A stretch of DNA of 64,000 nucleotides from Sphaerolaimus hirsutus. Its lineage: Eukaryota; Nematoda; Chromadorea; Monhysterida; Sphaerolaimidae. Below the pieces are notes generated by a model. It saw nothing but the letters and a program-made list of their open reading frames with translations. It was not told the origin of the DNA and did not search any database. Positions 33,255-62,704 of the stretch are shown one piece after another; positions within the stretch are counted from its first letter, which is position 1, and every line of letters begins with the position of its first letter. The position numbers were made by a program, and so were the translations under genes. Where the stretch lies: positions 32,536,612-32,600,611 of the forward strand of contig OZ038450.1 in the NCBI GenBank assembly GCA_964036195.1, given 5' to 3'.

Positions 33255-33394
33255 TTTTCAGTTGTACTTCTGCACTTCTGATCCATCCATCTTTGCTTCT
33301 GTTTATTTTCTGAATCCTTCCCAGTTTCCATGCACCTCTTGGTAAATTCTGCTCTTTGATCAGTACCACTGCACCAACTTTGGGTTCTGCTGGT
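33240..33394 (-). pseudogene. C-terminal tail of BEL/Pao pol
   Basis: The minus-strand frame reads a VVLIKEQNLPRGAWKLGRI stretch, the hallmark of the domain at the C-terminus of BEL/Pao polyproteins. The frame then shifts at about 33255 so that the usual final PLE-type motif lies in the envelope frame. About 100 residues that should join it to the integrase are missing where the foldback element at 33395-35965 sits. Confidence 0.7.
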
Positions 33395-38527: not shown

Positions 38528-39344
38528 ATAAAGTTCAGATTTTTGTCAAATTAGTTTGATTTTTTGCTGGTGGCGAGGTTTTATCGCCTAGTCTTCCAAG
38601 TATCAATACAGAAGGAGGTGTACTTTTTGACTGACTAGCACCTTGCTCTAGATTTAGTGTTTCCAGCATGTGAAACGTAACTTTCATACAACTTATGTAT
38701 TTATTTTAGTCAAAACCGAAAAGAAAAAGACCGTAGGTACGAGTGTGGTACAATTCTCTTTGCTCACTATGGAAAATTACCTCAAATCCTTCTGTGAAGC
38801 GTTTGAACTTCTTTGCTGCCGGTGCGCCGTTCCCGCCGCCGTTCGTGTTCGCGCTGGGTGGCCCGTTGTTGCGTTTTGTCGAGCGACTGCGACCCGATGG
38901 TGCCAGGTCTTGTCAAAGAATGAGCTAAGTTTTGCTGTCAAAAGTAGCTTGTGAAGTCCGAATGGTTGAATATTCCGACTTTGCTTGCTTTTATACATTG
39001 AGCGTGACTCATGGACAAAGGGATAATCGATGGAAAAACGTGTGCAGATTGGCAATCGGCTCGGCTTTGATCTTATTGTGGGATTTTGTCGCCGCTTGAT
39101 GCATGATTGCATCGCCCAGCGGATGGATTATAGCACCAGGCAGATGGATTAAATCTGGGTTAATCGGCGTGGGTTTAGCGTGGTTTTTTGTGCATTTAGT
39201 TGCGTGTGGATTTTTTTACATTTATTTCATTTGGGTGGGAATTTATTCAAGTCGGGATACATATGCACCGAAAAATTAAATATAAGTGGGGGTTGTAATG
39301 GGGTGTTGGTTTGGGGCAGTTTTTCGGTGCAAAACGCATCAGAA
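38528..39344. other. Unassigned; includes a GC-rich segment
   Basis: 38815-38925 is CpG-rich and unlike its surroundings, and is open in several frames without a recognisable domain. The rest is non-coding, possibly the 3' flank of the reverse transcriptase at 39345. Confidence 0.35.
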
Positions 39345-40282
39345 TCATGTGTGTGAAAATGTATTGTAAATCCAAAGTATCACGTTTTTGTGTAGAAGAA
39401 GATTGTGTTTAGTCATTAGGTTGCGGTAATTTATAGTTAATTTTGTCAAACTGGAGATCATGTTATCTTTCTCATATCCCATTTTGAGTAGATCTTGTAT
39501 GTGTGATTTTATGCGTATTGTCGCATCATAAAGATGTGTGCAAATTTCCAGAAAATGTTTACTTTGAGCGTCGAGTGTGTTGTATGCAGTTTGGGTGGGG
39601 ATGTTGCTGGAAAAATGTGTGTTTTTTACTATTTTGAAGGTGTAGTCATCAGTTTTGTTCCATACTTTGAATGATGCATTTCTGTTTTCTATTTTTATGT
39701 CTAGGTCCAGAAAATGCACTTTTTCACCGTGTTCACTTGTGTCTGGCTCTAAGGTCAGTTCAGTTCCCTATATTTTCGGTACTATGTCCATGAATCTGTT
39801 GTAGTTGACTATCAAAATGTCATCTATGTACCATTTAGAATTTTTAATGGTCCTAGAAAGTAGTGAATTTTGTTTGTCACCTAAGAATCGGTATTCCATG
39901 CTTGCTAAAGTCAGGTTGACAATATCACTTGATGCACTTCCTCCCATGGGAATACCTTTTGTTTGTTTGTATATATGACCACAAAAATTGATTAAGTGTT
40001 ATCTAGTACTTGGTTCAGTAGGAATTCTATTCCTGTCACATCAACTGTTTTTCCTGGTTTTTCAGACACGTGTGTGAAGGCACCCTGGTTTGTTATGCGC
40101 ACCCTCCCTGATTTGATGATGAGGTCCAGCAAGAATTTTATGTTGTTTTTTATCAGTGTGTGTGGGAGGGTTGTGAACATGGTCGAGAAGTCATATGTGT
40201 GTAATGAGTGTATTTTTGTTTGGTTTTTTAGTGATTGCATGACTTCTTTACTATTGGCACAGAGCCAAAAGCGGTTGGTGCC
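39345..40282 (-). pseudogene. Reverse transcriptase remnant, Penelope-like type
   Basis: The minus strand carries, in order, the DFSTMFTTLPH motif, then KGIPMGGSASS, the catalytic WYIDDILIV (about 39825) and FLDLDI, with a C-terminal extension ending at 39345. This motif order and the YIDD/FLDL spacing fit the Penelope-like group better than LINE or LTR enzymes, but I cannot exclude related single-domain reverse transcriptases. A frameshift near 40000 and an in-frame TAG near 39770 break it. The N-terminal part is cut off at 40282 by the start of the CACAG repeat. No endonuclease domain is seen. Confidence 0.65.
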
Positions 40283-41020
40283 CACAGCGAAACACAGCTC
40301 TCCGACAACACGCTCCCAACAAGCTGACAATGCTCTGTTTACGTTTGGCAGCGAGTTGTCAGCATTTGGCCGTGAGTTGGTAGGTAGTTGTCAGCATTTG
40401 GCAGCGAGTTGGCATGGATTTTAAAAAGCAGCTGCACAGTTGGCAGCGAGTTGTAAGTAAGTTGCATTTTTGTGGACCACATGCACTTTCTGAAAGCATG
40501 TACAAATGGGTTTGGCCCAAAAAATATAGACACACATAGATGGAACAGTTTTATTCAGTGAAACGATGCAGCTATTTCAGAAATGTTTCAACTTGTGCAA
40601 AAGTTTCAACCATGATGCGAGCAACACGAAATATGGCACTATTCATCAGTGCAATCACTTAAATGTAATCTTCCTTTACAATACTTAGCAAACATCTTGC
40701 ATTTTTCTTTGTTTGCTGCCATCACTTGACATTTGTGTGCAATTGCATGCAGCATTCTCTGTTTCTCTGTTTACTTTGATGTTAATGTTCTCTGTTTACT
40801 TTAATAATTACCAGGCTTTGCATTATTGCATTCGTTTTTATGTAAAATTTCATCACCACCTAATGAGAATGTGTTTTGGGTCAAATGAAGGCTGAAAATG
40901 TGTTTTTGGCAGCGAGTTGTCAGCTAGTTAATGCATGCACCAAGGAAAATGTCAGCGAGTTGTCAGTAAGCTGCACTCAAGTTGTCACCGAGTTGGCAGC
41001 ATTTTTGACGTTTGGCAAGA
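40283..41020 (+). repeat. Terminal region with TTGGCAGCGAGTTGTCAGC arrays
   Basis: CACAGCGAAACACAGCTCTC starts the block. GCGAGTTGTCAG-like words recur at both ends (40340-40460 and 40905-41010). It aligns, in opposite orientation, with 60211-60929 but lacks about 45 bp at the inner end. The stop codon of the long minus-strand gene (40985) lies inside it. Such repeated sub-terminal words are typical transposase-binding regions; that role here is inference. Confidence 0.7.
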
Positions 41021-44000
41021 CGTATCGACCGTTTGCACCGTCCCTGGCGCGGGGGGAATGGCACTCGCAGCCTGTTGAACTCGGAAATCCACGAGTTGCA
41101 CCGCCATACTTTGCGGCTCCAATTTCTCCGGCGTGAACGTGGTTTTCACCAATTTGCCGAGCATCATGTAGAAGTTTCCCTGGCACACATTGTGCCAGTA
41201 AACTTGCATTGCCTGGCGCCAATCGGTCGCTGTAAAGTGCACAACCACTGCTACAAACGTACAAACATAAAAACAACATTAAATGATACATTTCAGTAAA
41301 CCAACATCTACTGGCCTTTCCCTCTTTGAACACAATCATGGGCATGGTGGAGAACTGGATCATTTCTTCCGCCAGTTGCATAGCCTGGGCCTCCGATTGC
41401 CGCATTTGGTGCACCAGGGTAAAAACGATGTCCGCCTTCAAGTCGTTTCGCACTTTGTCCAACTCGATTTTCCACGCGTACTGCCCCAGCTCGCGCCGGC
41501 TGATCTGAATAAACGTGTTGAAAAGGTTACTACTGTTCCCCAAACTGTGATAATTCACTGACGCAACGCTTATCTGAATCAACCTGAGGCAGTTCTCCTG
41601 GCTCAACTTTCGGAATGGCGGCTTTTTGTTCAGCGGTGCGGCCCTGACTGTGCAGGCGTTCCACGATGTTGGGAAACACTGAGTAGTTGTACCATTTTTG
41701 CATAATGCAAATGCGAAGTTTACATATACATGGCCCGGAAAGGGTAAACTCACCGGACTTGTCTGCATAGTAGTCCATGTGCTTCAGAGTCGCGAAATTC
41801 AGCTCCATGATCTTCTTGTAGTAGTGCGCCCCTAGGTCCTCGTTTGACACGCCGCTCAGACGGCCGCCGTAAAGTATGCGCGCTTGGGTCAACGCTCTCT
41901 GAAAGGACAGTGAAACAGTGTTACGTGTACGGTGTAAAGCAAAGTTGCTTACTTAAAACTGAAAAATATTGTTTTCACTTGCTGTAAAACGGAAACTGAA
42001 ACCTATTTGCACTTGCAGAAAAACAAATACTGCGAAATGTTTTGCACTTGCCGGAAAAGGGAAACAGATACATTTCCCACACTTGCCATAAAACGGCATA
42101 CAGAAATTTGACACAGCAGTACTCGTCAACTGTAAACTGAGAAGTCTAAAACATGGTTAACCTTGAACTGCCGCTTTTTCGTGTCCCACATCGACTGCAA
42201 CATGCCGCGGCGGGCCACCAGAGCGTCTCTGTTTGTTGCGGCGGACTCGTTCGCCACCTCGCGGTCAACCACATCTTGTTGTTGGGGTAGTTGTCGTACG
42301 GGGGCTCGAAGTAGCTCTCCCTCGTGAAGTTGTTCCACGACCTGTTCACCGCTGGGTGATCCGACCGCTGAAAAAAGAAATGAAAGAATGGTTACAGAAA
42401 GGAATCTTTAACTCGCAAATGAAAGTAAGCAGTGAACTGCAACTAACGTTCGTTTGCCTTTCCGGGTGATGCAGGTCGTACTTGGTGCACTCCTTCATGC
42501 TCCAGCACCTGTGAGTAATGTACGTGTTCACAACATCCATTTACTTGTGTGATAAAAAAATACAAACAGAAACAAACAGCGGGTATTTTTGGAACAGCTC
42601 GTGGAACTTCTCCCAGAATTCTTCCGATTTCTCTGTCGGAATCAGCACGCTCGGCCGGCCTCCGACGCCGACGCGGCTCACATCGCCGGTAATCTGAGGT
42701 CACTCACACACCGTCTTAACTGTCCAGTATACTGTTTCCAGCCATGCACGTTTGTAAATATCCTGTTAAATACAGGTAGCCTTCCGGCTAACCGTTTTAT
42801 CATGATATTGTACGAATTGCAAGGCAAGCAACAGTTTACATTTACTTGCAGATGGTGTGTGACTGTCACCGGTTTTTTCGGTTTTTTCCCGGCCACTTTC
42901 AGCTTGCTCGGGCGCTTTTCAGTCTTTGACTGGGCCACCGCCAGCGACCGCTCATTGTCATCGGATGGCGTTTGCGACCCGTCGTTGGGCCCGCGGCCGC
43001 GCGGCCCCAACGGATTCATTTCCTGAGTTACGGGAGGTATGTGAGATTGTCACGTAACTGAAAATGTATGGGAAAGTCACAATTATGCATGATCCGGAAC
43101 TATCCAAACCGAAGGGGTCCAAATCGTAAGCTACCTCTTGGTCATCATCCTGCTGGGTGAAGTCCTCCACCCAGTCCTTGTCCTTCTGTGGATCGTCCTC
43201 GTCCACTTGGCCATCCTGAAGCTGTTTCAGTTGCTTCGTGGCATTCACGCGAGAGCGGCGCACGTTGCTGTTGTTGCGGCAGATGACTGGCACTTGCTGT
43301 ATACAAGAACGTGCTACTGTAAATGCAAACTCTTCTTTTGAAAATGCCAAAAACGGTCATTTAAACGTACCACTTTAGCGACCTGTGCAGCCAGCGCCCT
43401 CGTTTGCTCCTCCAGTCTCCTGGCATTTTCCTTCCTCCGCCTTTCCATTTCCACGTCCACTGCGCTTGGTGGCGACTTGGCGGTCTGACTGTACCGCGGC
43501 GTGATGAAGTCGTCATCATCGTTCTGCAGTTTACAACGCTAAGTTTACTGTTTCATGTAAAGAGAACTTAAAAAGAAGTTTACTACATCTGCGCATGCAC
43601 ATGGTAAACTGCAAACTTTGTTTCTTGTAGGCATTCATAAATGTGGTTGGAACGGATTGCAGTTTACTTGAATGAGTTATGCCCCAGTAATTGCGTTTGA
43701 CATATACATTATTTTGGTGAACTGACATGCATTCAAAGCCGATTTATGATGTTTCCAGCACACAGTTTGCAGTTCAGCGTGTGTACCCAAGTTAAATTAA
43801 CCTCCCAGTCGTCCCACTTCACCTTGGCGCGCACATTTTCTTTCTTCACGCGTTCTTCGTGCAGGCTCCTTTTGCTTTTGGACGCCTTGCTCTTCAGCGC
43901 CACGTGTCGCTCGTACTTGAGCTTTGCCTGAGAGATATTTCAAAGTAGTGTTTTGTAGTGATAATTACACAGTGTTCTAAAACACAGTGTGTTTCAAATT

Positions 44001-47000
44001 CATGTATACAGCAAGACTCGCTGGCAGATTTTAGAACGGTACAAATTGTGGAATGTGTCTATATAGTTACTGCTTGAAAGATGAAAGGTGTGGGTTCAAG
44101 CAAATCATGTTTACTGTGAGAACCCATATCCCGTGAAAGTCTGGGGTTTGGCATTCCCGATCCCCATCCCGATCCCCATCCCCATCCCGATCCCTTCTAA
44201 GTAAATTCCGTTTAAACCGTACTGAAAATAACACACTGTTAAAAAACACAGTGTGTTCCAAATAATGAGAAGCTTGAGACTATCCAGAATCTCGGTTCGC
44301 TATTTTTTCCACAGTAGAAATTGTGGAATGTGTGTATATAGTGTGTGCTTGAAAGATGAAAGATGCGGGTTCAAGTCCCTATCCCGATCCCCATTCGTAT
44401 GCCGATCCCGATCCCAATCCCCATCCCGATCCCAATCCCCATCCCGATCACGAAAAGTCAATCCACTTTGAACCATACTGACAATGACACACTGTTTTTA
44501 AACACAGTGTGTTCCAAATAGAGGATGCATTGGTGTTCTAGCAACCCATAGCAACGCTAGGTTCACTAGAGAGTTTTGAAACGGTAGAAATAGTGCAACG
44601 TGTGTATATAGTTATTGCTTGAAACATGATAGATGTGGGTTCAAGTCCCTATCCCGATCTCCATTAATATGCTGATCCCGATCCCAATCCCCATCCCGAT
44701 CCCCATCCCGATCCCCATCCCGATCCCCATCCCAATCCCCATCCCGATCCCCATCCCGATCCCCATCCCGATAAGTAAATTCCCTTTGAACCGTATTGAA
44801 AATAACACACTGTTTTTAACACAGTGTGTTCCAAATATTGGGAAAGCTTGTACGTGTGGGCCTACACACGAATCGCTTGAATCTCCATTTGTATTGTAGA
44901 AATAGTGGAATGTGTGTATACAGTGTGTGCTTGAAAGATGAAAGATGCGGGTTCAAGAAAATCACGTTTACTGTGAGGAACGTGATCCCCATCCCATCCC
45001 CATGCCCATCCCGATCCCAATCCCGATCCCGATCCCGAAAACTCAATCCCCTTTGAATCCTACTGACAATGACACACTGTTTAACTACAGTGTGTTTCAA
45101 ATAAATTTTCGCTGTAATATTTTCATGTAAATACACGAATATTTGCACAATTTGTTTTGCTGTATGGAAGAAATAGTGCAAGGTGTCTACAGACTGTGCT
45201 TGAAAGATGAAAGATTTGGGTTGAAGCCAAAAATGTCCAAAAACATTTAACCGTGAGAATGACACACGGTTGTTAAAAACTGTGTGTTTCAAATAATGAA
45301 GGTAACTCAACCTGTCAACTGCACACAGGTATTTTTGGCATGACATTCATGTCTACAGTGCGTGCTTGAAACATGAATGATGTGGGTTCAAGCAAAAAAT
45401 GTCCAAAATTTAAATGTCCAAAAGTCAAACGTCACCTTCTCAGTCAGCGTCAGATCATACTCCGATGGCGGGCGGGCAGTCTGAAAAAAATTTAAGTCGG
45501 AAGTGCGCACACGTCTAACGTGTCATACAACAGAATAAAAGCAGTATGCCTAGCCTAACTGAACAACTTAATTCACTGGCAGTTGGGAACAAGAGTGTAA
45601 TGTCGCAGCAAGGGCATCAATCCAGCGGGCCTTACGCTGCGCAACAGTCGCAGTCCGATTTCAGTCGCACTTTCTCACATGGTCAGATACGCGGCATGTT
45701 CCAGTTTCCCGCCACAACGAACACTTCAGCCTACCCCTTTCCACCACCGCCCCCAAACAGGTGCTTGTGTACACATTTAAGTATTGTTTCTCTAAAGCTA
45801 CCTGCCTATCAAGAACCAATTAAAATTTAAACAGCACATTCTAATAAAGAATGTGCTCCAAATAGTGACGTATGATTGTTTTGGACAAGGATTTATGCAA
45901 CAACATTCTGCTTGAGACTGCCACCAAACACTAAAAATGCATGCCATCATCATTTTCCCTGAAACATGACATTAGCGGGTTTCACTTTTCACACTGCTAA
46001 ATGCTTTTTGCAATTGCAGGTGCAGCAAACAGTTCTTATGTGATAAGGTTTGTGTATGAGAAATTGTAACAGTGTGTACACAAGCACAGTTTTCGTTTTC
46101 CAGTACCCAGTGCGTCTACACCCAATCAAACAACACAAGTGCAAAGCGCTACTTCAGTGTCCACAGCGGAAGGCATGAGTATTGACAGGAGTGAGGAGGA
46201 TGCAGGCCCCAGAATGACAGCATTTCAAGCTGTTAGTTTACAGTGCGGTAAAAACTGACCATGTTGACAAAAATGTGTCAAAGTTGATCACGTGTTATTT
46301 TTCAAGAAATGTGGTTTTATCCATTTCTTTCAAAATGCAGATGGATGAGCTCATCAACTTCACGAAAACCACCGAGAACAACATCGGCAAGATGCATATG
46401 GCCAGTAAAGCTACAGAGGTTCTGTTGGAACACACTAAGTTGCTCGAAAAGAAAGAGAAGGCTTATGAGCTGATGGTGACAGAGCTCGTTCCGCGTGACC
46501 TGCAGCGTACCCATCCTGTCAATCGCTACATGTGAAACACTGAACCAACTGATTCCCCTTTTTTATACACAGAACTGTGATGTTCAGAAAGTACTGCTTA
46601 AAAGTGAACCGTTCTTGTAATAAATGTCTGTGAAAGCGCTACATAACTGCAAACTCACTTTACCACTGTCAAAATTCAAATTTCGCTTCATGCCGGACGC
46701 TGTGGGCGTGGCTGTGTCAGCGGGTTTGCCCGGCGGTGCGGTCCGGACAGGCTCGGCGGGCTCGGTGGGCTCGGCAGGCGCGGCGTGATCGCCCGGCGAG
46801 GCGGGCGTGTCGGGCTCGGCGTTATTGTGTGGGTTCTCTTTATCCGCCCACCACGGAACACGAAAGGGTACATCCTAAAAAAATGAGAAATGTTGAAAGA
46901 ATTTTTCATTAGAAAAAGCTGTAAAGTAGCGCATGCACACACTAGTTTACTGCCACATCTAGGTAAAGTGATAAAGCAGCTTTGAACGCATTTCAGTTGA

Positions 47001-50000
47001 CTGAAATGGTTTATTCATTTACTGCAGTTGCCAGAGACATCATTCTATAAAACGCAAATGCGTTATAAGTCGATGTATCAGTTTACAAAAATGTTGCGGT
47101 AAAGGAGTGTGCGCATGACCATTAGTACAAAATAAGCTGGATTACAGGGAAGCTGACTAACACCAAAGAATGACACCAAAAATGAGGGAAAAAAGTATAG
47201 ATGGTGCATGTACTTCAGCGATGTACATGCTTAAGAATTAGTTGAAATCAGAATCCACCTTCCTTTCACCAACACTGGGAAAGTGCACAGTTAATATTCC
47301 TAGAAGCTACATAAAAGCTTTAAATGATAAGTGCCACTTACAGTTAAACTTACACTGTCGAACGGCCTACCTGCCATTCAGAAAGTTATTGGAAAAAAGT
47401 GAACAGTAAAATGGTGTTCGGCAAAAACAGTAAAATGGTAAAACAGTGTTTGGCTAACGAATGTATCCAGGCAGAGCGGAAACGAATTTGTGCGGAGGAT
47501 AAAGTGAGGTGGCGCAAACGGGCCCGGTGTCCTCGTCTGGTGCCGAATCCAACCGTCGTCACCGGGACCCGTGTGAATCCAGCCCTGGCCCTTGTCCAAA
47601 ACATCTGCAGAAAAGAGCACGTTACAATTAATGTTTCTTTTCCATGTTAAACTGACAGTTAGAAAAGAGTACCTTCTTTGTACATGGCCGGCAACGGGGT
47701 AGTGCACGTGGGCATGGCCAACTTGTTCCGGATGTATTGCAGGGTCTGCGAAATAGGAGAAACATTTTGAGAAAATGTTTTGCAAAAGGAACTTAGCCAT
47801 GTATAATTTTGTAAATACAAAATTATAAAATCAGTGCAGTTTAAGCCAGTTTCGATTCAGCCAATATAATTCTCACTTTTTAAGAAACAATTAAAATTTT
47901 AAGACAGTGAAAAAGTGGGCATTTTGATGGCTGAAAAATATATATATATGAAACACACTGATACATTTTTGATTCCAAGAATATACACCTTTCTAAGAAC
48001 CAATTAAAATTGTCAGCCAGTGAAACAGTGAGAAATTTGATGGCTGAAAAATATATATATGGCACACACTGAGACATTTTTGATTCCAACTTCTGATGCA
48101 TGAGGTGAACAATTTTCAAAAGAGAAAGATGGGAAAAAGTGATTTTACATAATGATTTTGGTATAACAAAAATTTAAATATGGAACCCACTTAGACATGT
48201 TTTGATTCCAAACATACCTGCAGAATGTGCAAAATTTTCAAAACAGAAACATGGTGAAATTTTATTTCACATGAAAGATTTTGGTTATACACAAATATAA
48301 ATATGGAAGCCACTTAGACACTTTCGATTCCAATGGAATATGCAGAAGGTGAAAAATTTTCAAAAGAGAAACATGTGAAAAATGGATCTCACATGAAACA
48401 TTTTGGTTGAACAAAACTATATATGGAACCCTGTCAGACACTTTTTGATTTCATACATATACGCAGAGTTTGCCAAAACTTAGAAACGGAATTATGGGAA
48501 AAAGTCATTTTATATGACCGATTTTTGGTATAACAAAAATATAAATATGAGCCCATTTCCCTACTTTTTTGATTAGTATACGTCTCCATATTTCACCAAA
48601 AAACAATCGTACTGAACTAACTTCGGCGGTGATTGTGCCCTTCACCTTCTGCACGCCACTGCTTTTCGGCTGACGATCAGTGCGCTTATCTGGCACGATC
48701 GGATCGCCATACTGAAATACGTAAGAGTACATCTATTGAAGAATTTACCAAACTGAACATTCTTATATTGAAACTTCCGCATACTTAAAATTTACATTTA
48801 ACGAAAACAAAGTGCAAAAAGGATGAAAGTAACAAAGTAAATGTACTTCATTCAGAATGGCAGTTCTGTACTCACACGTCCTGTTGTGCTCCTCCCTCAA
48901 GCGCTTCTTTTCCGCAATCTTCCCGGGGCTGTCCGGCGGAATTGGTAGGCCGGCCTCCATCGCCGCGCGTGCTTCCCCATCCTGCAACACATTCAGAAAC
49001 GTCTAAAACATGTCTCAAGAACACTGAAATAATTCTTACTGAAAGTAAACTAACGTAAATACTGTGACACCGCGGCTTGTCACAAATGAAGAGCGGCCAC
49101 TTTCGCTTGGGCTTCTCGGCTGTGGCAGCGTCTTGGCCAACTGTCGGCATCAGGGGCTTCGCTTTCTCGGCTGTGGCAGTGTCTTGGCAAACTGTCGGCG
49201 TCGGGGACAAACCCCCAACAACGACAGTTTTTGTTTTCAGTTTCTTCTGTTGCACGGGCGCCGGCAATTCCTTGGTGGGCGGTACGACAAGCGCGGGTAT
49301 GTGTTGCGCGGGCGCGGGCGCGGACATGGAAGCCGTAGTGCTTGCAGCGGGTGCAACCACTGCGGACGGCACAAGGGGACCACCGTACACATTCGCGACT
49401 GACGCACGTGCCTGCCGTTGCAGCTCCTGCTGCAAAGTGACAGTGTGTGTGTGTGTGTGTGTGTGTGATCAAACAATCAGTTTACATCTACATTTTACAC
49501 AATGGGTAAAAGGTGCTACAGTATGTCTGTCACAGTGTGCAAAGTTACACTGTCATGGAAACATCAGTTTACATCTACTTTTTACATAAGTGGTGAAAAC
49601 AGCAGCAGTAGTTAACGTTGCGCAAAATTTCAGGAAAGTGTACAGTGAGGGATTTCTGATTGAGTGTGTAATGCTGGAAAGAGAACGTATTCAAATAAAG
49701 AAAAAATGACAAACCATTTTGTTCTCTTTCAATAGCAGCCTTTTCTGGTCTCTGCGCCTCTTCGCCCCGATTCTGTCATTTTCCAACTTTCTCAGCCGTC
49801 TTTGCTCATCCATGGACAATTTCTGCTGGCGCGCTTTTTCCTCCTCGCGCTCTTTTTCCTGCTCCTCCAAACGGTCAGCGTCAGCGGGGACTTCGGGCTC
49901 AGCCGGAGACTCCTGACTCGCGAACAAATCCTGAAAAGGAACATTGTGTACACTTTTGACACAATGGAAAGAGAATTACGAATAGTTGAAACAAATGAAA

Positions 50001-50624
50001 TGTGAGTTTACAAAAAAGGACAGAAGTTTGCTAAATTACAGATGAATTTTTACATATTTCAAATAAAGAATAAACTGTGTGTGTAGAAAAAGTTCAGAAA
50101 CCCGTACAAATATAAGTAGCAAACCTGCAACAAAACCCTGCCAAACAAATGTGAGAGGTGATCGTCGGGGACAAGCATGCGCTGCGGCTCGGAAATGTCG
50201 CGCTGAGAACTCTGCGCGGCCTGCCCTCTGGTGTGCATGTTTGTTCCTTGGCTGCGCACGGGCAGTCCAGTCGGAACGGTCTGAAGTGGGGCAAACGATT
50301 TGTAAACATTGGTTGGCTTATCTTGGATTGTAAATATCGCGTTGGCTTGTAAACATTCGCAAATTGTAGATAAATTGGCAGATGTCCAAAACACACTTGT
50401 ACTCAAACAAAAATGATAACTAGAAAACACATGAAAAGAAATGGTAAGATAACCAAAGAAATCGGATGAGTAACCTGTTCTGGGGGCTGGCTCTCAGTTT
50501 TCTGCTTTGGCGGTCGTCCACGTTTGTTTCCATTTTTGCCTTTGCCGCCATCCGAAGTCGTTTCCGCAGTCGCGGAAATGTTTTGCGATCGGCCGCGCAC
50601 CATACCGCCCAAAGTTCGGACCAT
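40985..50624 (-). CDS. Long 21-exon gene divergent from the Harbinger-type transposase (AT-hook protein)
   Basis: Exons on the minus strand: 50624-50475, 50280-50125, 49930-49715, 49429-49055, 48981-48876, 48711-48622, 47745-47673, 47604-47459, 46874-46664, 45480-45436, 43927-43802, 43523-43371, 43296-43135, 43022-42870, 42693-42578, 42508-42448, 42367-42162, 41898-41754, 41678-41584, 41504-41312, 41247-40985; about 1,080 codons. Nearly all junctions are GT-AG with matching phase. I chose the ATG at 50624. Exon 1 has an AT-hook (KRGRPPK); exon 3 is a charged helix (RLEEQEKEREEEKARQQ) likely to coil; exons 4 and 9 are Ala/Pro-rich; exons 15-16 weakly recall the start of a MADF-type DNA-binding domain. 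PIF/Harbinger elements usually carry a second, DNA-binding gene; this one is much longer than usual. Phase fails by one base at exons 5-6 and 9-10, and within exon 17, so this copy may be damaged or misassembled. Confidence 0.68.
43970..45430. repeat. Intronic tandem array of six about 270-bp units
   Basis: Units recur at about 44071, 44346, 44616, 44928, 45197 and 45363, measured at TGCTTGAAAGATGAAAG. Each has a hairpin (ACACACTGTTTTTAACACAGTGTGT), a GGGTTCAAGTCC word like a tRNA B box, and, in four units, an (ATCCCG/ATCCCC)n run. It lies in the intron between exons 10 and 11 of the minus-strand gene. Confidence 0.8.
45546..46535 (+). CDS. Four-exon gene nested in an intron of the minus-strand gene
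   Basis: Exons 45546-45760, 46020-46039 (a 20-bp microexon), 46104-46231 and 46341-46535 join in matching phases (2, 1, 0) with GT-AG ends, giving about 186 codons. The first exon is Gln/Ser-rich and ends in a proline run; the third is Thr/Ser-rich; the last is a charged helix (HTKLLEKKEKAYELM) likely to form a coiled coil. An AATAAA lies at 46619-46624. I recognise no family. It sits between exons 9 and 10 of the opposite gene, inside the same presumed transposon, so a third element-encoded protein is the simplest reading. The microexon is the weakest point of the model. Confidence 0.5.
46619..46624 (+). terminator. Poly(A) signal AATAAA of the nested gene
   Basis: A canonical hexamer lies 84 bp after the stop codon of the nested plus-strand gene. 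Confidence 0.5.
47880..48560. repeat. Intronic tandem repeat, about 115-125-bp units
   Basis: Six diverged units share TTTTGATTCCAA, ATAAATATGGAACCCAC and AATTTTCAAAAGAGAAACATG words. It lies between exons 6 and 7 of the minus-strand gene and is duplicated at 53812-54492. Confidence 0.75.
49443..49467 (+). repeat. (GT)n microsatellite
   Basis: A run of about 12 GT units directly before the exon 4 acceptor of the minus-strand gene (read as AC on that strand). It has the same length in unit 2 at 55375-55399. Confidence 0.9.
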
Positions 50625-50876
50625 TTTCGATGCGAAATCAATCAAACGGTCTATTTTTCACTTTTCCACAAAATTTTCGCCTTTTATTTCTTATCTGTGA
50701 AAGATATGGATTTGTGACAAAAAAAAGTGACACGTCGTGATACAATTTTATGTTATTCATGGTTACTTTTTTTAATCACATGTTTCATTTCTGGCTATAT
50801 GCCAGAAATGTCTGGCATATAGCCAGAAATCTGAAATATCGATTGACAAAAACAGTCCCCAAAAAAACGTTTCAAA
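50625..50876. promoter_or_regulatory. Bidirectional promoter region between the two divergent genes
   Basis: 252 bp separate the two start codons. It contains the palindrome at 50787-50830 and AT-rich stretches but no clear TATA box. The counterpart in unit 2 is 56557-56808. Confidence 0.6.
50787..50830. promoter_or_regulatory. Two-part perfect palindrome in the shared promoter
   Basis: Two 20-bp arms (50787-50806 and 50811-50830) are exact inverted copies around AATG. Each arm is itself a near-palindrome, TTCTGGCTATATGCCAGAA, so TCTGGC-N5-GCCAGA occurs twice. Its position between divergent genes suggests a binding site for a protein that controls both. It is identical at 56719-56762. Confidence 0.65.
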
Positions 50877-53367
50877 ATGGCGCACGATGAATCCATTTTG
50901 GGACAAATGCAAAGAATGAACGAAGCGCTAGAGCGGAATTTGGATGGAACTGCGCCACTAACGCACAATCAGAAGAGACAAATATTAGCCGCTTTTTTGG
51001 CAGTCGGGAACATGTTGTTTTCGTATGATGTGGACAACAACGACAAAGAACAAGAGCAGGAACAGCAGAATGCCGCGCAAGAACAGGGTGATCAGCGCAG
51101 GAAAAAGTACATGACACTGTATTTACTAGAAAGGGCGCGCTCCAGGGGCAATTACTGGCGAGCTGTTATTGCCTGCAAGAACACGGATCTAGCATGGTTT
51201 TACAAACTGTGCAGGGTTCGTTGTTTCACAATTTATGTTATTTACGTAAAATATACAGTTGTATATAACATCACTTACTGTGTTGTGACATTTTCATGTT
51301 ATTGTTTACAACAACATTGCAATCGAACAGTAAACTGATATGTATGAATGAACTCAGTTTACCGATAACGTTCACAAAGATTACAAATTAATTACAGCTG
51401 TGGCCAACTGAATTCGAACAGCTGCACGCGATGCTTACAGCTGTTGACCCTGAAACTGGTGAACAGTACCTGAGAACACGAGATGAAAGAAGACACATCG
51501 CTGTAGTGACAACAGAAATGCGACTGTTTTACTTTCTGTATACATGCGCAAACGGCCGGGAAGTTGAAGATTGTGCTGGCCAGTCACAGGTGATACCATT
51601 TTGCATGCTTTTAGATTGCTTTATAGTTCATTGTATTTTGGAAAAACATTTACAGATTTCCGGCGCTACGATTAGAACGATTATTGACGAAGTGTCCACC
51701 GGAATAGTGAAAGTTTTGAAGGACCACTTGAAACCTATGGGGAGTGATTTAGGGCAAATGAAAGATTTCGCGCAGCAATACTGGAAACTGTGGCAGATGC
51801 CGAACTGTGTGGGGAGTCTGGATGGCAAACACATCCGTATTCGCAAACCCGCTGGTAAGTACATATCATTTTACGCATTTTACTTTTGCCCTCATGTGTG
51901 TTGTTTCCAGTAAACATAAACATGGTGAGTCGTATGCAACGTCACGGTAAACTACGCGTCGCATTTGCGACGCTTGCGACGCTTGCGACGCTTGCGTCGC
52001 CTTCAATCAGAAATAGTCGCCAGTTTACCAAGGTTGCAAAATTTTTTGTGAAAACGTCGCTTTTCGTCGCATTTTGCGTCGCAAACGTCGCAAAATCGTC
52101 GCTTTTGCTTGAGTTTGACCGCAACCCCCACCGATTTCAAAGTAACTTCATTTGGGCCATGGGAATGTTGTGCAAATGATTTTTGGATGTACTTGTAGAG
52201 AAAAAAATTGCGCTTCTTCTGACGTACCTGGCTCCTCATAAAAGTTATCTAAAAAAAAGTTATGATTTTTTTTAAAAAAGGGCCAAATTGCGCGACGAAA
52301 TGGCGACGGTCTGGCGACTGTAGAAAAATGACTAAATTCACAGTGATGGGAAACTGTGCAGTGAGGTGGAAATGTTTACAGTTACAAAAGTAAATGAAAA
52401 ACGCCTTGCAGAGGGTGGAACGAGGTACTGGTGCTACAAGGGCTTCTCGTCGATTATACTGTTCATCAGCGCCAGCGCGGATTTGAAAATTCAGTACGTG
52501 GACATCGGTATGCCGGGGTCACAAGCAGATGGTGCTGTGCTGATCACGTCTGATTTCAGGCAGGATTTGATGTGAGTTTACATCCTTTTTGACATGTATC
52601 AATGAGGTGCTATACATTTACACATGATAAAAGTGATACATTTACACAGACATGGCAGAATGCTTATGGCGCCACCGTGCTTGCTGCCCGGTGCAGATGC
52701 CAACAAACCTGCAAATACCATTCCGAGTTATTTTGTGGGTGATCAAGCATTCGCGTTGCGCAAGTGGTGTATGGTGCCATATGCGCTGCATGCAGATGAC
52801 AGCCAGCGACACTTCAACTATCGGTGTGTTTGAATATTCTCAAAGAAGCGTTGTTCGGTTAAACTGAAATGTAAATTTGACTGCAACTACTGCAGCTTAT
52901 CCCGAGCTAGGCGTACTGTTGAATGCGTCTTTGGTATTTTGGCCGGCAGATGGCGCATACTGCTGACCTGTATCGCGATGGAACCGCCACGTGTACAAAG
53001 ACTGGTTATGGCCTGTTGCCACCTGCACAATTGGCTGCGTGATATCCGCGGGGAAAGTGCTGCCAACCAATTTTATGAAAATGGCGATGAAAAACCACAA
53101 GACGACCCAAACGACACTGTTGAATGTAAGTTTACCGAAATGTAAGTTTACCTTGCATATTCACTGTTACAATTCAACATCACATAAATTCATTCCCATA
53201 CACAGCTGCAGTGGCGACCAGTGTACGATAACATGGATACGATCGATGACGTGCCAATCCGAAGGGACGTTGACGAAAGAGATGCGCGCCCCATCAGGGA
53301 TGCAATCAAGCAGTGGATGATGACGGACGCCGGTCGTGTTCCGTGGGTGAATCCCGCTGACTGCTGA
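50877..53367 (+). CDS. PIF/Harbinger-type DDE transposase, copy 1
   Basis: Seven exons: 50877-51215, 51398-51589, 51656-51854, 52412-52571, 52650-52823, 52896-53125, 53206-53367, about 485 codons. The first six join in correct phase with GT-AG ends. The catalytic triad is visible: Asp in CVGSLDGKHIRI (exon 3), Asp in YFVGDQAFALRKW (exon 5), Glu in RTVECVFGILAGRWRIL (exon 6), with the family's YKGFSSIILF and VDIGMPGSQADGAV between. Exon 1 is charged and Gln-rich. The enzyme cuts and joins element ends in the nucleus, normally with a DNA-binding partner from a second gene. The strongest donor of exon 6 leaves one base too many for the clear frame of exon 7 and would end the protein eight codons later; a weak donor (ACT|GTTGAA) would keep phase. 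Confidence 0.9.
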
Positions 53368-53431
53368 ATTTGCAACTACGTTGAATATAAAAATCAAACT
53401 GAAATATTTCCGTTGCAGTGGCAGTTAGCAT

Positions 53432-56400
53432 TAAAGTGAGGTGGCGCAAACGGGCCCGGTGTCCTCGTCTGGTGCCGAATCCAACCGTCGTCACCGGGAC
53501 CCGTGTGAATCCAGCCCTGGCCCTTGTCCAAAACATCTGCAGAAAAGAGCACGTTACAATTAATGTTTCTTTTCCATGTTAAACTGACAGTTAGAAAAGA
53601 GTACCTTCTTTGTACATGGCCGGCAACGGGGTAGTGCACGTGGGCATGGCCAACTTGTTCCGGATGTATTGCAGGGTCTGCGAAATAGGAGAAACATTTT
53701 GAGAAAATGTTTTGCAAAAGGAACTTAGCCATGTATAATTTTGTAAATACAAAATTATAAAATCAGTGCAGTTTAAGCCAGTTTTGATTCAGCCAATATA
53801 ATTCTCACTTTTTAAGAAACAATTAAAATTTTAAGACAGTGAAAAAGTGGGCATTTTGATGGCTGAAAAATATATATATATGAAACACACTGATACATTT
53901 TTGATTCCAAGAATATACACCTTTCTAAGAACCAATTAAAATTGTCAGCCAGTGAAACAGTGAGAAATTTGATGGCTGAAAAATATATATATGGCACACA
54001 CTGAGACATTTTTGATTCCAACTTCTGATGCATGAGGTGAACAATTTTCAAAAGAGAAAGATGGGAAAAAGTGATTTTACATAATGATTTTGGTATAACA
54101 AAAATTTAAATATGGAACCCACTTAGACATGTTTTGATTCCAAACATACCTGCAGAATGTGCAAAATTTTCAAAACAGAAACATGGTGAAATTTTATTTC
54201 ACATGAAAGATTTTGGTTATACACAAATATAAATATGGAAGCCACTTAGACACTTTCGATTCCAATGGAATATGCAGAAGGTGAAAAATTTTCAAAAGAG
54301 AAACATGTGAAAAATGGATCTCACATGAAACATTTTGGTTGAACAAAACTATATATGGAACCCTGTCAGACACTTTTTGATTTCATACATATACGCAGAG
54401 TTTGCCAAAACTTAGAAACGGAATTATGGGAAAAAGTCATTTTATATGACCGATTTTTGGTATAACAAAAATATAAATATGAGCCCATTTCCCTACTTTT
54501 TTGATTAGTATACATCTCCATATTTCACCAAAAAACAATCGTACTGAACTAACTTCGGCGGTGATTGTGCCCTTCACCTTCTGCACGCCACTGCTTTTCG
54601 GCTGACGATCAGTGCGCTTATCTGGCACGATCGGATCGCCATACTGAAATACGTAAGAGTACATCTATTGAAGAATTTACCAAACTGAACATTCTTATAT
54701 TGAAACTTCCGCATACTTAAAATTTACATTTAACGAAAACAAAGTGCAAAAAGGATGAAAGTAACAAAGTAAATGTACTTCATTCAGAATGGCAGTTCTG
54801 TACTCACACGTCCTGTTGTGCTCCTCCCTCAAGCGCTTCTTTTCCGCAATCTTCCCGGGGCTGTCCGGCGGAATTGGTAGGCCGGCCTCCATCGCCGCGC
54901 GCGCTTCCCCATCCTGCAACACATTCAGAAACGTCTAAAACATGTCTCAAGAACACTGAAATAATTCTTACTGAAAGTAAACTAACGTAAATACTGTGAC
55001 ACCGCGGCTTGTCACAAATGAAGAGCGGCCACTTTCGCTTGGGCTTCTCGGCTGTGGCAGCGTCTTGGCCAACTGTCGGCATCAGGGGCTTCGCTTTCTC
55101 GGCTGTGGCAGTGTCTTGGCAAACTGTCGGCGTCGGGGACAAACCCCCAACAACGACAGTTTTTGTTTTCAGTTTCTTCTGTTGCACGGGCGCCGGCAAT
55201 TCCTTGGTGGGCGGTACGACAAGCGCGGGTATGTGTTGCGCGGGCGCGGGCGCGGACATGGAAGCCGTAGTGCTTGCAGCGGGTGCAACCACTGCGGACG
55301 GCACAAGGGGACCACCGTACACATTCGCGACTGACGCACGTGCCTGCCGTTGCAGCTCCTGCTGCAAAGTGACAGTGTGTGTGTGTGTGTGTGTGTGTGA
55401 TCAAACAATCAGTTTACATCTACATTTTACACAATGGGTAAAAGGTGCTACAGTATGTCTGTCACAGTGTGCAAAGTTACACTGTCATGGAAACATCAGT
55501 TTACATCTACTTTTTACATAAGTGGTGAAAACAGCAGCAGTAGTTAACGTTGCGCAAAATTTCAGGAAAGTGTACAGTGAGGGATTTCTGATTGAGTGTG
55601 TAATGCTGGAAAGAGAACGTATTCAAATAAAGAAAAAATGACAAACCATTTTGTTCTCTTTCAATAGCAGCCTTTTCTGGTCTCTGCGCCTCTTCGCCCC
55701 GATTCTGTCATTTTCCAACTTTCTCAGCCGTCTTTGCTCATCCATGGACAATTTCTGCTGGCGCGCTTTTTCCTCCTCGCGCTCTTTTTCCTGCTCCTCC
55801 AAACGGTCAGCGTCAGCGGGGACTTCGGGCTCAGCCGGAGACTCCTGACTCGCGAACAAATCCTGAAAAGGAACATTGTGTACACTTTTGACACAATGGA
55901 AAGAGAATTACGAATAGTTGAAACAAATGAAATGTGAGTTTACGAAAAAGGACAGAAGTTTGCTAAATTACAGATGAATTTTTACATATTTCAAATAAAG
56001 AATAAACTGTGTGTGTAGAAAAAGTTCAGAAACCCGTACAAATATAAGTAGCAAACCTGCAACAAAACCCTGCCAAACAAATGTGAGAGGTGATCGTCGG
56101 GGACAAGCATGCGCTGCGGCTCGGAAATGTCGCGCTGAGAACTCTGCGCGGCCTGCCCTCTGGTGTGCATGTTTGTTCCTTGGCTGCGCACGGGCAGTCC
56201 AGTCGGAACGGTCTGAAGTGGGGCAAACGATTTGTAAACATTGGTTGGCTTATCTTGGATTGTAAATATCGCGTTGGCTTGTAAACATTCGCAAATTGTA
56301 GATAAATTGGCAGATGTCCAAAACACACTTGTACTCAAACAAAAATGATAACTAGAAAACACATGAAAAGAAATGGTAAGATAACCAAAGAAATCGGATG

Positions 56401-56556
56401 AGTAACCTGTTCTGGGGGCTGGCTCTCAGTTTTCTGCTTTGGCGGTCGTCCACGTTTGTTTCCATTTTTGCCTTTGCCGCCATCCGAAGTCGTTTCCGCA
56501 GTCGCGGAAATGTTTTGCGATCGGCCGCGCACCATACCGCCCAAAGTTCGGACCAT
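53432..56556 (-). pseudogene. 3'-truncated copy of the long minus-strand gene
   Basis: Exons 1-7 are present at 56556-56407, 56212-56057, 55862-55647, 55361-54987, 54913-54808, 54643-54554 and 53677-53605. Exon 8 begins at 53536 and is cut at the duplication junction (about 53435), after its GPFAPPHF stretch. Beyond the junction the minus strand enters the back of transposase copy 1, so exons 9-21 are unavailable except by splicing into the next unit. Confidence 0.8.
53812..54492. repeat. Unit 2 copy of the 115-125-bp tandem array
   Basis: Same array as 47880-48560, offset 5,932 bp. Confidence 0.75.
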
Positions 56557-56718
56557 TTTCGATGCGAAATCAATCAAACGGTCTATTTTTCACTTTTCCA
56601 CAAAATTTTCGCCTTTTATTTCTTATCTGTGAAAGATATGGATTTGTGACAAAAAAAAGTGACACGTCATGATACAATTTTATGTTATTCATGGTTACTT
56701 TTTTTAATCACATGTTTC

Positions 56719-56762
56719 ATTTCTGGCTATATGCCAGAAATGTCTGGCATATAGCCAGAAAT
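56719..56762. promoter_or_regulatory. Unit 2 copy of the two-part promoter palindrome
   Basis: Identical to 50787-50830, between the start codons at 56556 (minus) and 56809 (plus). Confidence 0.65.
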
Positions 56763-56808
56763 CTGAAATATCGATTGACAAAAACAGTCCCCAAAAAAAC
56801 GTTTCAAA

Positions 56809-59299
56809 ATGGCGCACGATGAATCCATTTTGGGACAAATGCAAAGAATGAACGAAGCGCTAGAGCGGAATTTGGATGGAACTGCGCCACTAACGCACAA
56901 TCAGAAGAGACAAATATTAGCCGCTTTTTTGGCAGTCGGGAACATGTTGTTTTCGTATGATGTGGACAACAACGACAAAGAACAAGAGCAGGAACAGCAG
57001 AATGCCGCGCAAGAACAGGGTGATCAGCGCAGGAAAAAGTACATGACACTGTATTTACTAGAAAGGGCGCGCTCCAGGGGCAATTACTGGCGAGCTGTTA
57101 TTGCCTGCAAGAACACGGATCCAGCATGGTTTTACAAACTGTGCAGGGTTCGTTGTTTCACAATTTATGTTATTTACGTAAAATATACAGTTGTATATAA
57201 CATCACTTACTGTGTTGTGACATTTTCATGTTATTGTTTACAACAACATTGCAATCGAACAGTAAACTGATATGTATGAATGAACTCAGTTTACCGATAA
57301 CGTTCACAAAGATTACAAATTAATTACAGCTGTGGCCAACTGAATTCGAACAGCTGCACGCGATGCTTACAGCTGTTGACCCTGAAACTGGTGAACAGTA
57401 CCTGAGAACACGAGATGAAAGAAGACACATCGCTGTAGTGACAACAGAAATGCGACTGTTTTACTTTCTGTATACATGCGCAAACGGCCGGGAAGTTGAA
57501 GATTGTGCTGGCCAGTCACAGGTGATACCATTTTGCATGCTTTTAGATTGCTTTATAGTTCATTGTATTTTGGAAAAACATTTACAGATTTCCGGCGCTA
57601 CGATTAGAACGATTATTGACGAAGTGTCCACCGGAATAGTGAAAGTTTTGAAGGACCACTTGAAACCTATGGGGAGTGATTTAGGGCAAATGAAAGATTT
57701 CGCGCAGCAATACTGGAAACTGTGGCAGATGCCGAACTGTGTGGGGAGTCTGGATGGCAAACACATCCGTATTCGCAAACCCGCTGGTAAGTACATATCA
57801 TTTTACGCATTTTACTTTTGCCCTCATGTGTGTTGTTTCCAGTAAACATAAACATGGTGAGTCGTATGCAACGTCACGGTAAACTACGCGTCGCATTTGC
57901 GACGCTTGCGACGCTTGCGACGCTTGCGTCACCTTCAATCAGAAATAGTCGCCAGTTTACCAAGGTTGCAAATTTTTTTGTGAAAACGTCGCTTTTCGTC
58001 GCATTTTGCGTCGCAAACGTCGCAAAATCGTCGCTTTTGCTTGAGTTTGACCGCAACCCCCACCGATTTCAAAGTAACTTCATTTGGGCCATGGGAATGT
58101 TGTGCAAATGATTTTTGGATGTACTTGTAGAGAAAAAAATTGCGCTTCTTCTGACGTACCTGGCTCCTCATAAAAGTTATCTAAAAAAAAGTTATGATTT
58201 TTTTTAAAAAAGGGCCAAATTGCGCGACGAAATGGCAACGGTCTGGCGACTGTAGAAAAATGACTAAATTCACAGTGATGGGAAACTGTGCAGTGAGGTG
58301 GAAATGTTTACAGTTACAAAAGTAAATGAAAAACGCCTTGCAGAGGGTGGAACGAGGTACTGGTGCTACAAGGGCTTCTCGTCGATTATACTGTTCATCA
58401 GCGCCAGCGCGGATTTGAAAATTCAGTACGTGGACATCGGTATGCCGGGGTCACAAGCAGATGGTGCTGTGCTGATCACGTCTGATTTCAGGCAGGATTT
58501 GATGTGAGTTTACATCCTTTTTGACATGTATCAATGAGGTGCTATACATTTACACATGATAAAAGTGATACATTTACACAGACATGGCAGAATGCTTATG
58601 GCGCCACCGTGCTTGCTGCCCGGTGCAGATGCCAACAAACCTGCAAATACCATTCCGAGTTATTTTGTGGGTGATCAAGCATTCGCGTTGCGCAAGTGGT
58701 GTATGGTGCCATATGCGCTGCATGCAGATGACAGCCAGCGACACTTCAACTATCGGTGTGTTTGAATATTCTCAAAGAAGCGTTGTTCGGTTAAACTGAA
58801 ATGTAAATTTGACTGCAACTACTGCAGCTTATCCCGAGCTAGGCGTACTGTTGAATGCGTCTTTGGTATTTTGGCCGGCAGATGGCGCATACTGCTGACC
58901 TGTATCGCGATGGAACCGCCACGTGTACAAAGACTGGTTATGGCCTGTTGCCACCTGCACAATTGGCTGCGTGATATCCGCGGGGAAAGTGCTGCCAACC
59001 AATTTTATGAAAATGGCGATGAAAAACCACAAGACAACCCAAACGACACTGTTGAATGTAAGTTTACCGAAATGTAAGTTTACCTTGCATATTCACTGTT
59101 ACAATTCAACATCACATAAATTCATTCCCATACACAGCTGCAGTGGCGACCAGTGTACGATAACATGGATACGATCGATGACGTGCCAATCCGAAGGGAC
59201 GTTGACGAAAGAGATGCGCGCCCCATCAGGGATGCAATCAAGCAGTGGATGATGACGGACGCCGGTCGTGTTCCGTGGGTGAATCCCGCTGACTGCTGA
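56809..59299 (+). CDS. PIF/Harbinger-type DDE transposase, copy 2
   Basis: Exons 56809-57147, 57330-57521, 57588-57786, 58344-58503, 58582-58755, 58828-59057 and 59138-59299 match copy 1 exon for exon. Two coding differences from copy 1 are visible: Leu to Pro near the end of exon 1 (TDPAW) and Asp to Asn near the end of exon 6 (PQDNPND). All three catalytic residues are kept, as is the exon 6-7 phase problem, which therefore predates the duplication. Both copies have their full promoter region, so either could be expressed. Confidence 0.9.
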
Positions 59300-59363
59300 A
59301 TTTGCAACTACGTTGAATATAAAAATCAAACTGAAATATTTCCGTTGCAGTGGCAGTTAGCAT

Positions 59364-60210
59364 TAAAGTGGCACTGGAATGGTAAACTGATGTAACAAAT
59401 ACAAAAAATTTATTTTCACGCTATCTGCTACTGCTACACTTAATTTTTTGATTGCAACCGGTTATAATGGTCATTCTGTAGTACACTGTCATTGAATGAA
59501 CAATTTTCATTCACTATTCGATTTTTGGCTGATTTTTTTCTTTTTTAATTGTGATTAAATCATAATTCGCCAAGTCTTTCGTTTCACGCCGCGAAAAATT
59601 GTGTGATGTGTGCATCTCATGTTCCTCTTTCATGTGTGATTTTTTTTTCCGGATTCAGGCTTTCCGTTCACGTGCTAGTGATTTATTTGCGTTTAATTGA
59701 AATAAAATCATAAAAAATTGAAAGTTTATATTTCATGTCCGCTGTGTACACCAATCGATAGCGCAATGAAAAATGATAATTTAGAATGTTTCGATAAACG
59801 AAAAAACGTAACAGGTGATTTTATAAAAATTTATTTCCACAAAAAAAATAATAAATTCAATAAAAAATCCAATGTTGTACTTAAAAATATTTTAAAAATT
59901 TTGACAACATCTACACAACGTACTGTACACGATGACGCAAAAAAATTGCATAAACAATGCTCCGTTCTTCCACAATTAAAGAAATTAGAAATTAATGTTT
60001 ACAGCGTAAATTCACATCACTGGCAAACTTGAAAAAAATAAAGATGGCAGCCTAAACTCCGCCCACTTTTACTATGCGTGAATTTAGCCGGTAAACTAAA
60101 AAATTGAGTTTACCACCAGTAAACTGAAAACGCCAGTAAACTGAAAACGCCAGTAAACTAGTGTGCGTGGGGCCATTACTGACAATAATTGCGGCCATTT
60201 TGTCCGGAAG
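59364..60210 (+). other. Flank of the duplication with an AT-rich orphan open frame
   Basis: From the ATG at 59766 to 60032 an 88-codon frame (open further upstream, with CPLC at about 59739) is lysine- and asparagine-rich, unlike the GC-richer codons of the transposase. I recognise no domain, and it may be a fragment of another element. 60085-60165 repeats CAGTAAACTGAAAACG three times. Confidence 0.35.
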
Positions 60211-60929
60211 CACAGTGAAAGGTATCTCTCTGACAACTAGGTGACAACTCGCTTGCCAAAGCCTAAAAAAGGGCCAGCTCGCTGACAAACAAAATGCAGC
60301 TTGTTGACAACTCGCTGACATATTTACTTGGTGCATGTGGTAGCTGGCTGACAACTCGCTGCCAAAATAAACATTTCCAGCCTTCATTTGACCCAAAACA
60401 CTTTTCACAAGGTGGTGATGAAATATTATGGTAAAACACATGCAATATAATGCAAAGGTTGGTAAAAATTGAGACAATGAGGAAACATAAAATGCATAAT
60501 GATAAAGCAAAAAATCATGTCAAATGACTAAATTGAGAATAACAACTGGAAAAATGACTATACAAATGTCCTCAGTGTAGAAAGTGTGGACTTCTCACAG
60601 CAGTACAATACCAATCAGAATGTGACCCTTTCTTCTCATTTTCTGCACTCTTGTTTGATTATACATTTTATGGGTCAAAACGATTTGTACACACTTCCAT
60701 AAAGTGCATGTGGTGCAAATTACATTCAACTTGCTGACAACTCGCTGCCAGCTGTGCAGCTGCTGGGAAAATGCACCCCAACTTTCTGCCACTCGCTGAC
60801 AACTGTGTTCCAACTCGCTGCCACTCGCTGACAACTATGTTCCAACTCGCTGCCAACAGTAAACAAATCATTGTCAGCTAGTTGGAAGCGAGTTGTAGGA
60901 GAGTTGTCAGAGAGCTACCTTTCACTGTG
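60211..60929 (-). mobile_element. 719-bp non-autonomous element (CACAGTGAAAGGTA), Harbinger-like
   Basis: The TIRs are CACAGTGAAAGGTATCTC and GAGCTACCTTTCACTGTG with AAG on both outer sides (60208-60210 and 60930-60932), a 3-bp TSD as in PIF/Harbinger. CTGACAACTCGCTGCCA-type words are arrayed near each end. The whole length aligns inversely with 40283-41020, the region that ends the minus-strand gene. Confidence 0.72.
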
Positions 60930-62668: not shown

Positions 62669-62704
62669 TATAGGTACCCACTACTCAGAGGCTTGCAAAA
62701 ACTG

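Follow-up and report, generated by a model that had tools for sequence, protein, structure and literature searches.

The 64,000-bp window of the Sphaerolaimus hirsutus genome analysed here (contig OZ038450.1; C1:32536612-32600611 of the 348,482,957-bp assembly) very probably contains a single copy, damaged and in part duplicated, of a Harbinger-like (PHIS-type) transposon that is repeated and unusually large. With the same high confidence we consider that one mobile unit joins three genes: a DDE_Tnp_4 transposase gene, a long partner gene running away from it on the minus strand, and a small gene located within a partner intron (Table 1). An earlier note, made from the sequence of this DNA alone, had proposed such a Harbinger-type unit; a second copy and the genome-wide pairing of transposase and partner speak for the unit, while its ends and a strict PIF/Harbinger status found no such support.

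The genome was sampled as 28 stretches, each 10 kb long; contig C1 supplied 20 of them and C2 eight. One stretch (L015) contained a second copy of the element, named copy B, also on C1; two adjoining pieces were added to give C1:21800001-21828000, which was read reversed. The sharing of all three genes by a second locus had been set beforehand as the test of the unit, and in copy B all three are present and ordered as in the window. Blast revealed no further copy among the 28 stretches. Copy B aligns collinearly with window positions 41023-60177, except that the second unit of a tandem duplication is missing. Over 41029-53431 and 59364-60177, 461 of 12,507 aligned positions differ (3.7%), and the divergence per 500 bp is mostly 1.4-4.2%. 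It rises to 8-9% at 46529-47528 (introns included), to 5.4-7.6% at 49029-50028, and to 10.6% at 44529-45028, a repeat-rich gappy stretch; mosaic descent or recombination between element lineages is a possible source of such peaks, for example at 46529-47528. The two copies share a sharp right end and differ in sequence beyond it. The element in copy B is about 16.8 kb long, taking a candidate left end near 9827 of the reversed sequence.

Genome-wide, at least 163 DDE_Tnp_4 matches were found in the assembly. About 131 of the 150 transposase matches listed (counted by eye) are long and contain two to five in-frame stops, like the window's own two and as would be expected for an intron-containing gene. 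A 64-amino-acid exon of the partner gave 105 matches, of which 103 lack a stop codon, 93 have 92-100% identity and ten are partial. They represent about 102 places, since three neighbouring pairs look like one exon split by a frameshift, and are spread over 13 of the contigs C1-C16 and over smaller contigs. Among the matches listed, at least 79 of the 105 have a divergent transposase within 16 kb (median 11.1 kb), and 73 of these 79 pairs lie 10.3-12.3 kb apart, compared with 0.27% of random positions having one that near, where places on contigs shorter than 1 Mb were scored as misses. These matches show that transposase and partner recur together across the genome, in a family of roughly 100 copies. 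Many partner-exon matches share one score and one identity (95%), which suggests a recent spread of the family.

As the earlier note had read them, the transposase gene and the partner gene diverge from one short region; their ATG codons (50877 and 50624) are 252 bp apart. The spliced transposase has 482 amino acids from seven exons, and a slightly shorter model of it matched the Pfam family DDE_Tnp_4 (PF13359) above the cut-off with an E value of 4.1e-26. Among 4,115 candidates, 102 proteins were homologous at E ≤ 0.001, the best-scoring one being 36% identical, and HARBI1 or ALP1-like names occur among them. The catalytic triad D233, D274 and E364 is invariant in an alignment of 12 sequences (the transposase and 11 of the 102 homologs), and is kept in both transposase gene copies of the window. 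Searches with the transposase in IMG/VR and, by sequence, in PDB were without result. Between the window and copy B we counted 16 synonymous and 15 nonsynonymous differences; the ratio of nonsynonymous to synonymous divergence (dN/dS) is 0.25 (one-sided Fisher p 0.0002), a value by which the transposase is judged to be under purifying selection. An intact triad, splicing and purifying selection of the transposase would also be seen if transposase and partner were a domesticated host gene pair, amplified and immobile. We give this explanation hardly any credence, because the 105 partner-exon matches are scattered over 13 of the contigs C1-C16 and smaller ones, and the two compared copies have a common sharp right end with different sequence outside.

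For the partner gene, the gene-finder was run with a codon table trained on the transposase. On the minus strand of 40950-50650 the best gene scored 229 with 23 exons; the antisense strand scored 88, and eight control runs (four other window segments, both strands) scored 12 to 43, with background frequencies drawn from 1-40000, a region that also served as control segments. In a hand-made table, 14 of 21 exons are multiples of three, with a few borders off by 1-2 bases. The most nearly complete partner gene of the window starts at 50624, beside transposase copy 1. Past the left break of the window copy, copy B has ten more partner exons (147, 177, 174, 96, 246, 99, 117, 81, 141 and 48 bp), whose lengths are without exception divisible by three and which end in an acidic tail; over them the gene-finder scored 215 on the partner strand versus 58 on the opposite strand, with other partner exons included in the codon table. 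From the summed exon lengths, the full partner in copy B is predicted to have about 31 exons and about 1,550 codons. The partner is thus unusually long, as had been claimed, and the earlier figure of 21 exons and roughly 1,080 codons was too small. An AT-hook start was also claimed: the motif KRGRPPK, which we take to be AT-hook-like, does stand in exon 1 of both copies, and no profile matched it. The longest partner intron (44030-45230) contains several degenerate repeat units, (GATCCC)n-like tracts and the words GGGTTCAAG and ACACACTGTT. Two sampled stretches (L006 and L017) match only the repeat units near 44130-44480; since they carry this repeat without the element, it also lives outside the element.

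The reading frame of the partner is broken by a single base once in each copy, in exon 42367-42162 of the window and in exon 49930-49715 of copy B. In the window exon, third-position GC content is 0.94 in frame 0 over the first half, then 0.85 in frame 2 over the second; the break was deduced from these values prior to the comparison with copy B, which then agreed. Other exonic indels between the copies are 27, 3, 15, 12 and 54 bp. We found 49 synonymous and 120 nonsynonymous differences in the partner (dN/dS 0.70, p 0.028), and from 43927 on the dN/dS is 0.52 (p 0.024). No stop codon occurs in 1,043 compared codons of copy B, against 3.7 expected at random (P 0.024). No credible Pfam family was matched by the partner pieces, the ten extra exons included; weak matches to CDC45 (E 0.85), HEXIM (0.11), Dscam_C (0.35), CNDH2_M (3.8) and Nucleo_P87 (0.24) were judged to be due to chance. 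A collection of 5.8 billion proteins was searched with residues 500-1045 of the window model and with the C-terminal 348 amino acids, leaving aside residues 1-499 and the ten extra exons; the former gave no match at E ≤ 1 among 7,987 scored candidates, and the latter none at E ≤ 10 among 1,209. In PDB, a sequence search with the C-terminal 348 amino acids gave only chance-level matches (ribosomal L20, E 0.86-0.88), and no relatives of the partner or of the nested protein were confirmed in IMG/VR.

Considering its length, its many exons, its weak constraint (dN/dS 0.70) and its lack of a recognised transposon domain, the partner might be a host gene captured as cargo by a Harbinger-like element and spread along with it, without a role in transposition. 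We consider such a capture unlikely. No homolog of the two searched parts was found in the protein collection, 103 of the 105 exon matches (ten of them partial) are free of stop codons, and the partner shares its promoter region with the transposase.

The third gene lies, as previously described, inside a partner intron (45481-46658) on the opposite strand, and an AATAAA follows downstream at 46619. Its codon score is weak on its own. Between the two copies, its first and last exons show six synonymous differences per 86 sites and two nonsynonymous per 310 (one-sided Fisher p 0.0017). The middle exon has a less certain frame; when it is counted in, the values become 7/114 and 6/405 (p 0.011). 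The indels between the copies are 12 and 54 bp, multiples of three. These counts point to purifying selection on the nested gene as well. By eye, the C-terminus of the predicted protein looks helical and coiled-coil-like.

The right end of the element lies at about 60177, and the left end of the window copy is lost, the element breaking off at about 41023. The earlier note had placed the outer limits at 40283 and 60929, which corresponds to a single element with CACAGTG-type termini and a short relative of it at 60211. Inverted similarity between 40283-41019 and 60252-60929 does agree with such an element. But 60211 and 60929 match each other (27/28) better than either matches 40283, with AAG flanking both, and the copy B match stops at 60177 and at 41023, copy B continuing to code past the left break. 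A single element with these limits is scarcely tenable, and 40283 and 60929 as the ends of one element are refuted by copy B. The shared unit is 41023-60177; the short element at 60211, formerly taken to support mobility of the terminal sequence, is a separate element with its own terminal inverted repeats and AAG duplication.

The left end was sought in copy B. The candidate near 9827 resembles the right end (9827 versus 26616) in 17 of 25 positions. A foreign repeat occupies the left flank, and five of its eight matches stop at 9816-9819, the other three earlier; one copy of this repeat in the window reaches 9823. In a search for a paralogous empty site at this flank, the flanking repeat was seen to stop there in most of its copies. 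ATT follows GGGGCC at both right ends; copy B has AAT on its left side, and so the two sides differ. No terminal inverted repeat partners for the unit were obtained inside the window, and an Rfam scan of 38000-64000 was without result. A second terminus-like sequence, GGCGGCACACACTAGTTTACTACCAGTAAACT, was seen at 26734-26790 of reversed copy B (about 1211-1267 of L015), about 120 bp outside the right end; it is perhaps the end of a related element.

Several observations weigh against a mobile Harbinger-like unit of three genes. No listed transposase was found within 16 kb of 26 of the 105 partner-exon matches, which may be truncated copies, contig ends, or places whose transposase is outside the matches listed. 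The left end rests on a single copy, copy B. The earlier note had suggested checking the outer flanks for terminal inverted repeats and a 3-bp target-site duplication: the repeats are weak (17 of 25), two other places in the 28 kb (12564 and 26734) score 16 and 18, and the duplication is unreadable in copy B, being AAT left and ATT right, or GGC and GAG, by the border chosen. Constraint on the partner is weak (dN/dS 0.70). The nested gene occurs in both copies that were compared, the test of it covering a single copy besides that of the window. The MADF and SANT/Myb domains once suspected in the accessory proteins were not matched in Pfam at E ≤ 10 in the pieces of partner and nested protein scanned, though a strongly diverged domain could escape such a scan. 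The profile scan revealed no known DNA-binding domain in the partner, and its role is an inference. Protein searches depend on shared short words or on a described profile, and the Myb-like partners of Harbinger elements diverge strongly, according to an excerpt of PMC9179366; therefore the partner may have a hidden Myb fold. Strict PIF/Harbinger membership, with a TWA target duplication and a Myb/SANT protein, is not shown. Judged from the sequence, the element is a giant PHIS variant, and we left its group within PHIS unassigned.

The window copy is enlarged by a direct tandem duplication of 5,932 bp, revealed by blasting the window against itself; the two units differ by ten mismatches and no indel. 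Each unit includes the transposase gene in full, together with the divergent promoter region and 5' partner exons. Among the 150 transposase matches listed, only the window's two lie 5,932 bp apart (by eye). With so few substitutions between the units, and with copy B lacking the duplication, an assembly artefact, such as two haplotypes placed end to end, is a substantial possibility that still falls short of probable. The junction, on the other hand, is clean, with a 7-bp microhomology inside the element, and the sequence is contiguous on both sides. The artefact would concern the duplication alone, and not the giant element.

The motif AGTTTAC occurs 52 times in the window in either orientation, 41 of them within 41198 to 60153. 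Once the duplicate unit is left out, the window copy has 30 sites, of which 29 fall outside the partner and transposase exons. Copy B has 40 sites in 16.8 kb, versus 49 in 272 kb of other sampled genome. Some sites form part of splice donors and others do not, and a cluster lies at the right end. From this distribution we infer that AGTTTAC may be a protein binding site.

Considering these features, we might speculate, tentatively, that a giant PHIS branch swapped the transposase and Myb/SANT pair for a complex of three proteins: the transposase, an orphan AT-hook partner of about 1,550 residues from 31 exons, and the nested coiled-coil-like protein. The complex would recognise a short motif spread over the whole element, not only at its ends. 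Our main reading of the element goes less far. In it, the transposase would cut at the element ends; the partner would take over DNA binding and nuclear delivery from the usual Myb/SANT protein, its likeliest target being AGTTTAC, dispersed in introns and clustered at the right end; and the nested protein may assist in assembling the complex. Because its left end is lost and its partner frame is broken, the window copy would be mobile only with ends and proteins supplied otherwise.

Table 1. Features of the giant Harbinger-like element in the window (positions of the 64,000-bp window).
Feature	Position	Strand	Remarks
Window copy of the giant element	41023..60177		Left-truncated, enlarged by internal tandem duplication; collinear with copy B
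Left break of window copy	41020..41023		Joined to truncated short element ending at 41019; copy B continues coding
Partner gene	41023..50624	-	About 21 exons in window copy, ATG at 50624; ten further exons lost at left break
Partner exon with one-base frame break in window copy	42162..42367	-	Seen in third-position GC; copy B reads through
Nested third gene	45546..46535	+	Exons about 45546-45762, 46104-46230, 46341-46535; micro-exon between first two uncertain
Tandem duplication unit 1	47500..53431		99.83% identical to unit 2
Partner exon 1 with AT-hook-like motif	50475..50624	-	KRGRPPK, identical in copy B
Divergent promoter region of partner and transposase	50625..50876		Read from sequence
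Transposase gene copy 1	50877..53367	+	Exons 50877-51215, 51398-51589, 51656-51854, 52412-52571, 52650-52823, 52896-53118, 53206-53367
Tandem duplication unit 2	53432..59363		7-bp microhomology TAAAGTG at junction; absent from copy B
Duplicated 5' partner exons in unit 2	53432..56556	-	Cut off at junction; tblastn with partner protein
Transposase gene copy 2 (duplication unit 2)	56809..59299	+	L105P and D425N relative to copy 1; triad intact
Right subterminal AGTTTAC cluster and right end (...GTGTGCGTGGGGCCATT)	60089..60177		17-bp tandem repeat 60116-60159; copy B match stops at 60177

The giant element is bordered by short elements. The segment 60211-60929 is a self-contained element of 719 bp with CACAGTGAAAGG termini, terminal inverted repeats identical in 27 of 28 positions, AAG on both sides, and dense repeated GCGAGTTG/GTTGTCAG subterminal units. 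A diverged relative of nearly whole length lies inverted at 40283-41019, its last 40 bp or so missing. Blast against about 300 kb of sampled genome matched neither. CACTA elements have CACTA termini and a 3-bp duplication. As a candidate CACTA-like non-autonomous element, the 719-bp element has terminal inverted repeats, a 3-bp AAG duplication and closely spaced subterminal repeats, but its termini are CACAG, and it has no transposase to fix the superfamily. Minus-strand frames at 39345-40282, which resemble a Penelope-type reverse transcriptase, are apparently interrupted by the element at 40283, and those at 30987-38545, which we take to resemble a BEL/Pao-type retroelement, are accompanied by additional large frames. 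At 62696-63230 there is a 27-bp minisatellite (CAAAAATGGCACCCCCTGGGGACCCCC). Dense subterminal repeats such as those of the short element recall CACTA elements as described in part of PMC8978399.

The following comparisons with known systems draw on excerpts of the cited papers. PHIS groups average about 3.5-4.8 kb, with two open reading frames in most autonomous candidates (PMC4482050). PIF/Harbinger and Nuwa resemble the present element in their DDE_Tnp_4-type transposase with its triad, an adjoining second gene and the cut-and-paste type, but their autonomous elements average about 4.1-4.7 kb, against 16.8 kb here, and their second reading frame is Myb/SANT (PMC4482050). Unlike them, the present element has an orphan partner of about 1,550 codons, a nested third gene and no Myb/SANT profile match. 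PIF elements are described as two-gene (PMC9710019), and the Myb-like protein of Harbinger as needed for nuclear import and end binding (PMC9179366). Pangu (Harbinger2) has a second reading frame without known motif, as has the partner here (PMC4482050), and its GG termini and ANT duplications (PMC4482050, PMC12477816) would be compatible with an end starting with GG plus a neighbouring ATT; it is, however, about 3.5 kb long (PMC4482050), and no target duplication could be read here. PHISTA elements of rust fungi are likewise of Harbinger lineage and encode three proteins, the third without Myb/SANT, but they carry a TET/JBP dioxygenase, a domain not found in the present element, and TA target duplications (PMC12730594); a SET-domain clade is also mentioned for this lineage (PMC12730594). 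The YqaJ exonuclease partner and THAP transposase that feature in ISL2EU had no Pfam match in the pieces scanned here. Giant KDZ, EnSpm and Sola elements are DNA transposons above 10 kb, like the present element, but belong to other transposase superfamilies (PMC12477816, PMC6431247); in Ectocarpus, which has giant KDZ, EnSpm and Sola-1 elements, the Harbinger elements are two-gene (PMC12477816). A text search of the giant-transposon review PMC6431247 for Harbinger and PIF found neither.

Judged by titles and abstract beginnings, the open-access literature showed no giant or three-gene Harbinger elements of the present kind, and for this reason we call the element a novel variant of Harbinger-like transposons. 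A family of roughly 100 copies, about four times the usual size, would mean that the Harbinger lineage can bear a huge spliced gene and still spread. Such a family would offer a natural test of the function of the second protein, and may bear on how a cut-and-paste element keeps its introns and a nested gene, as well as on the origins of giant DNA transposons.

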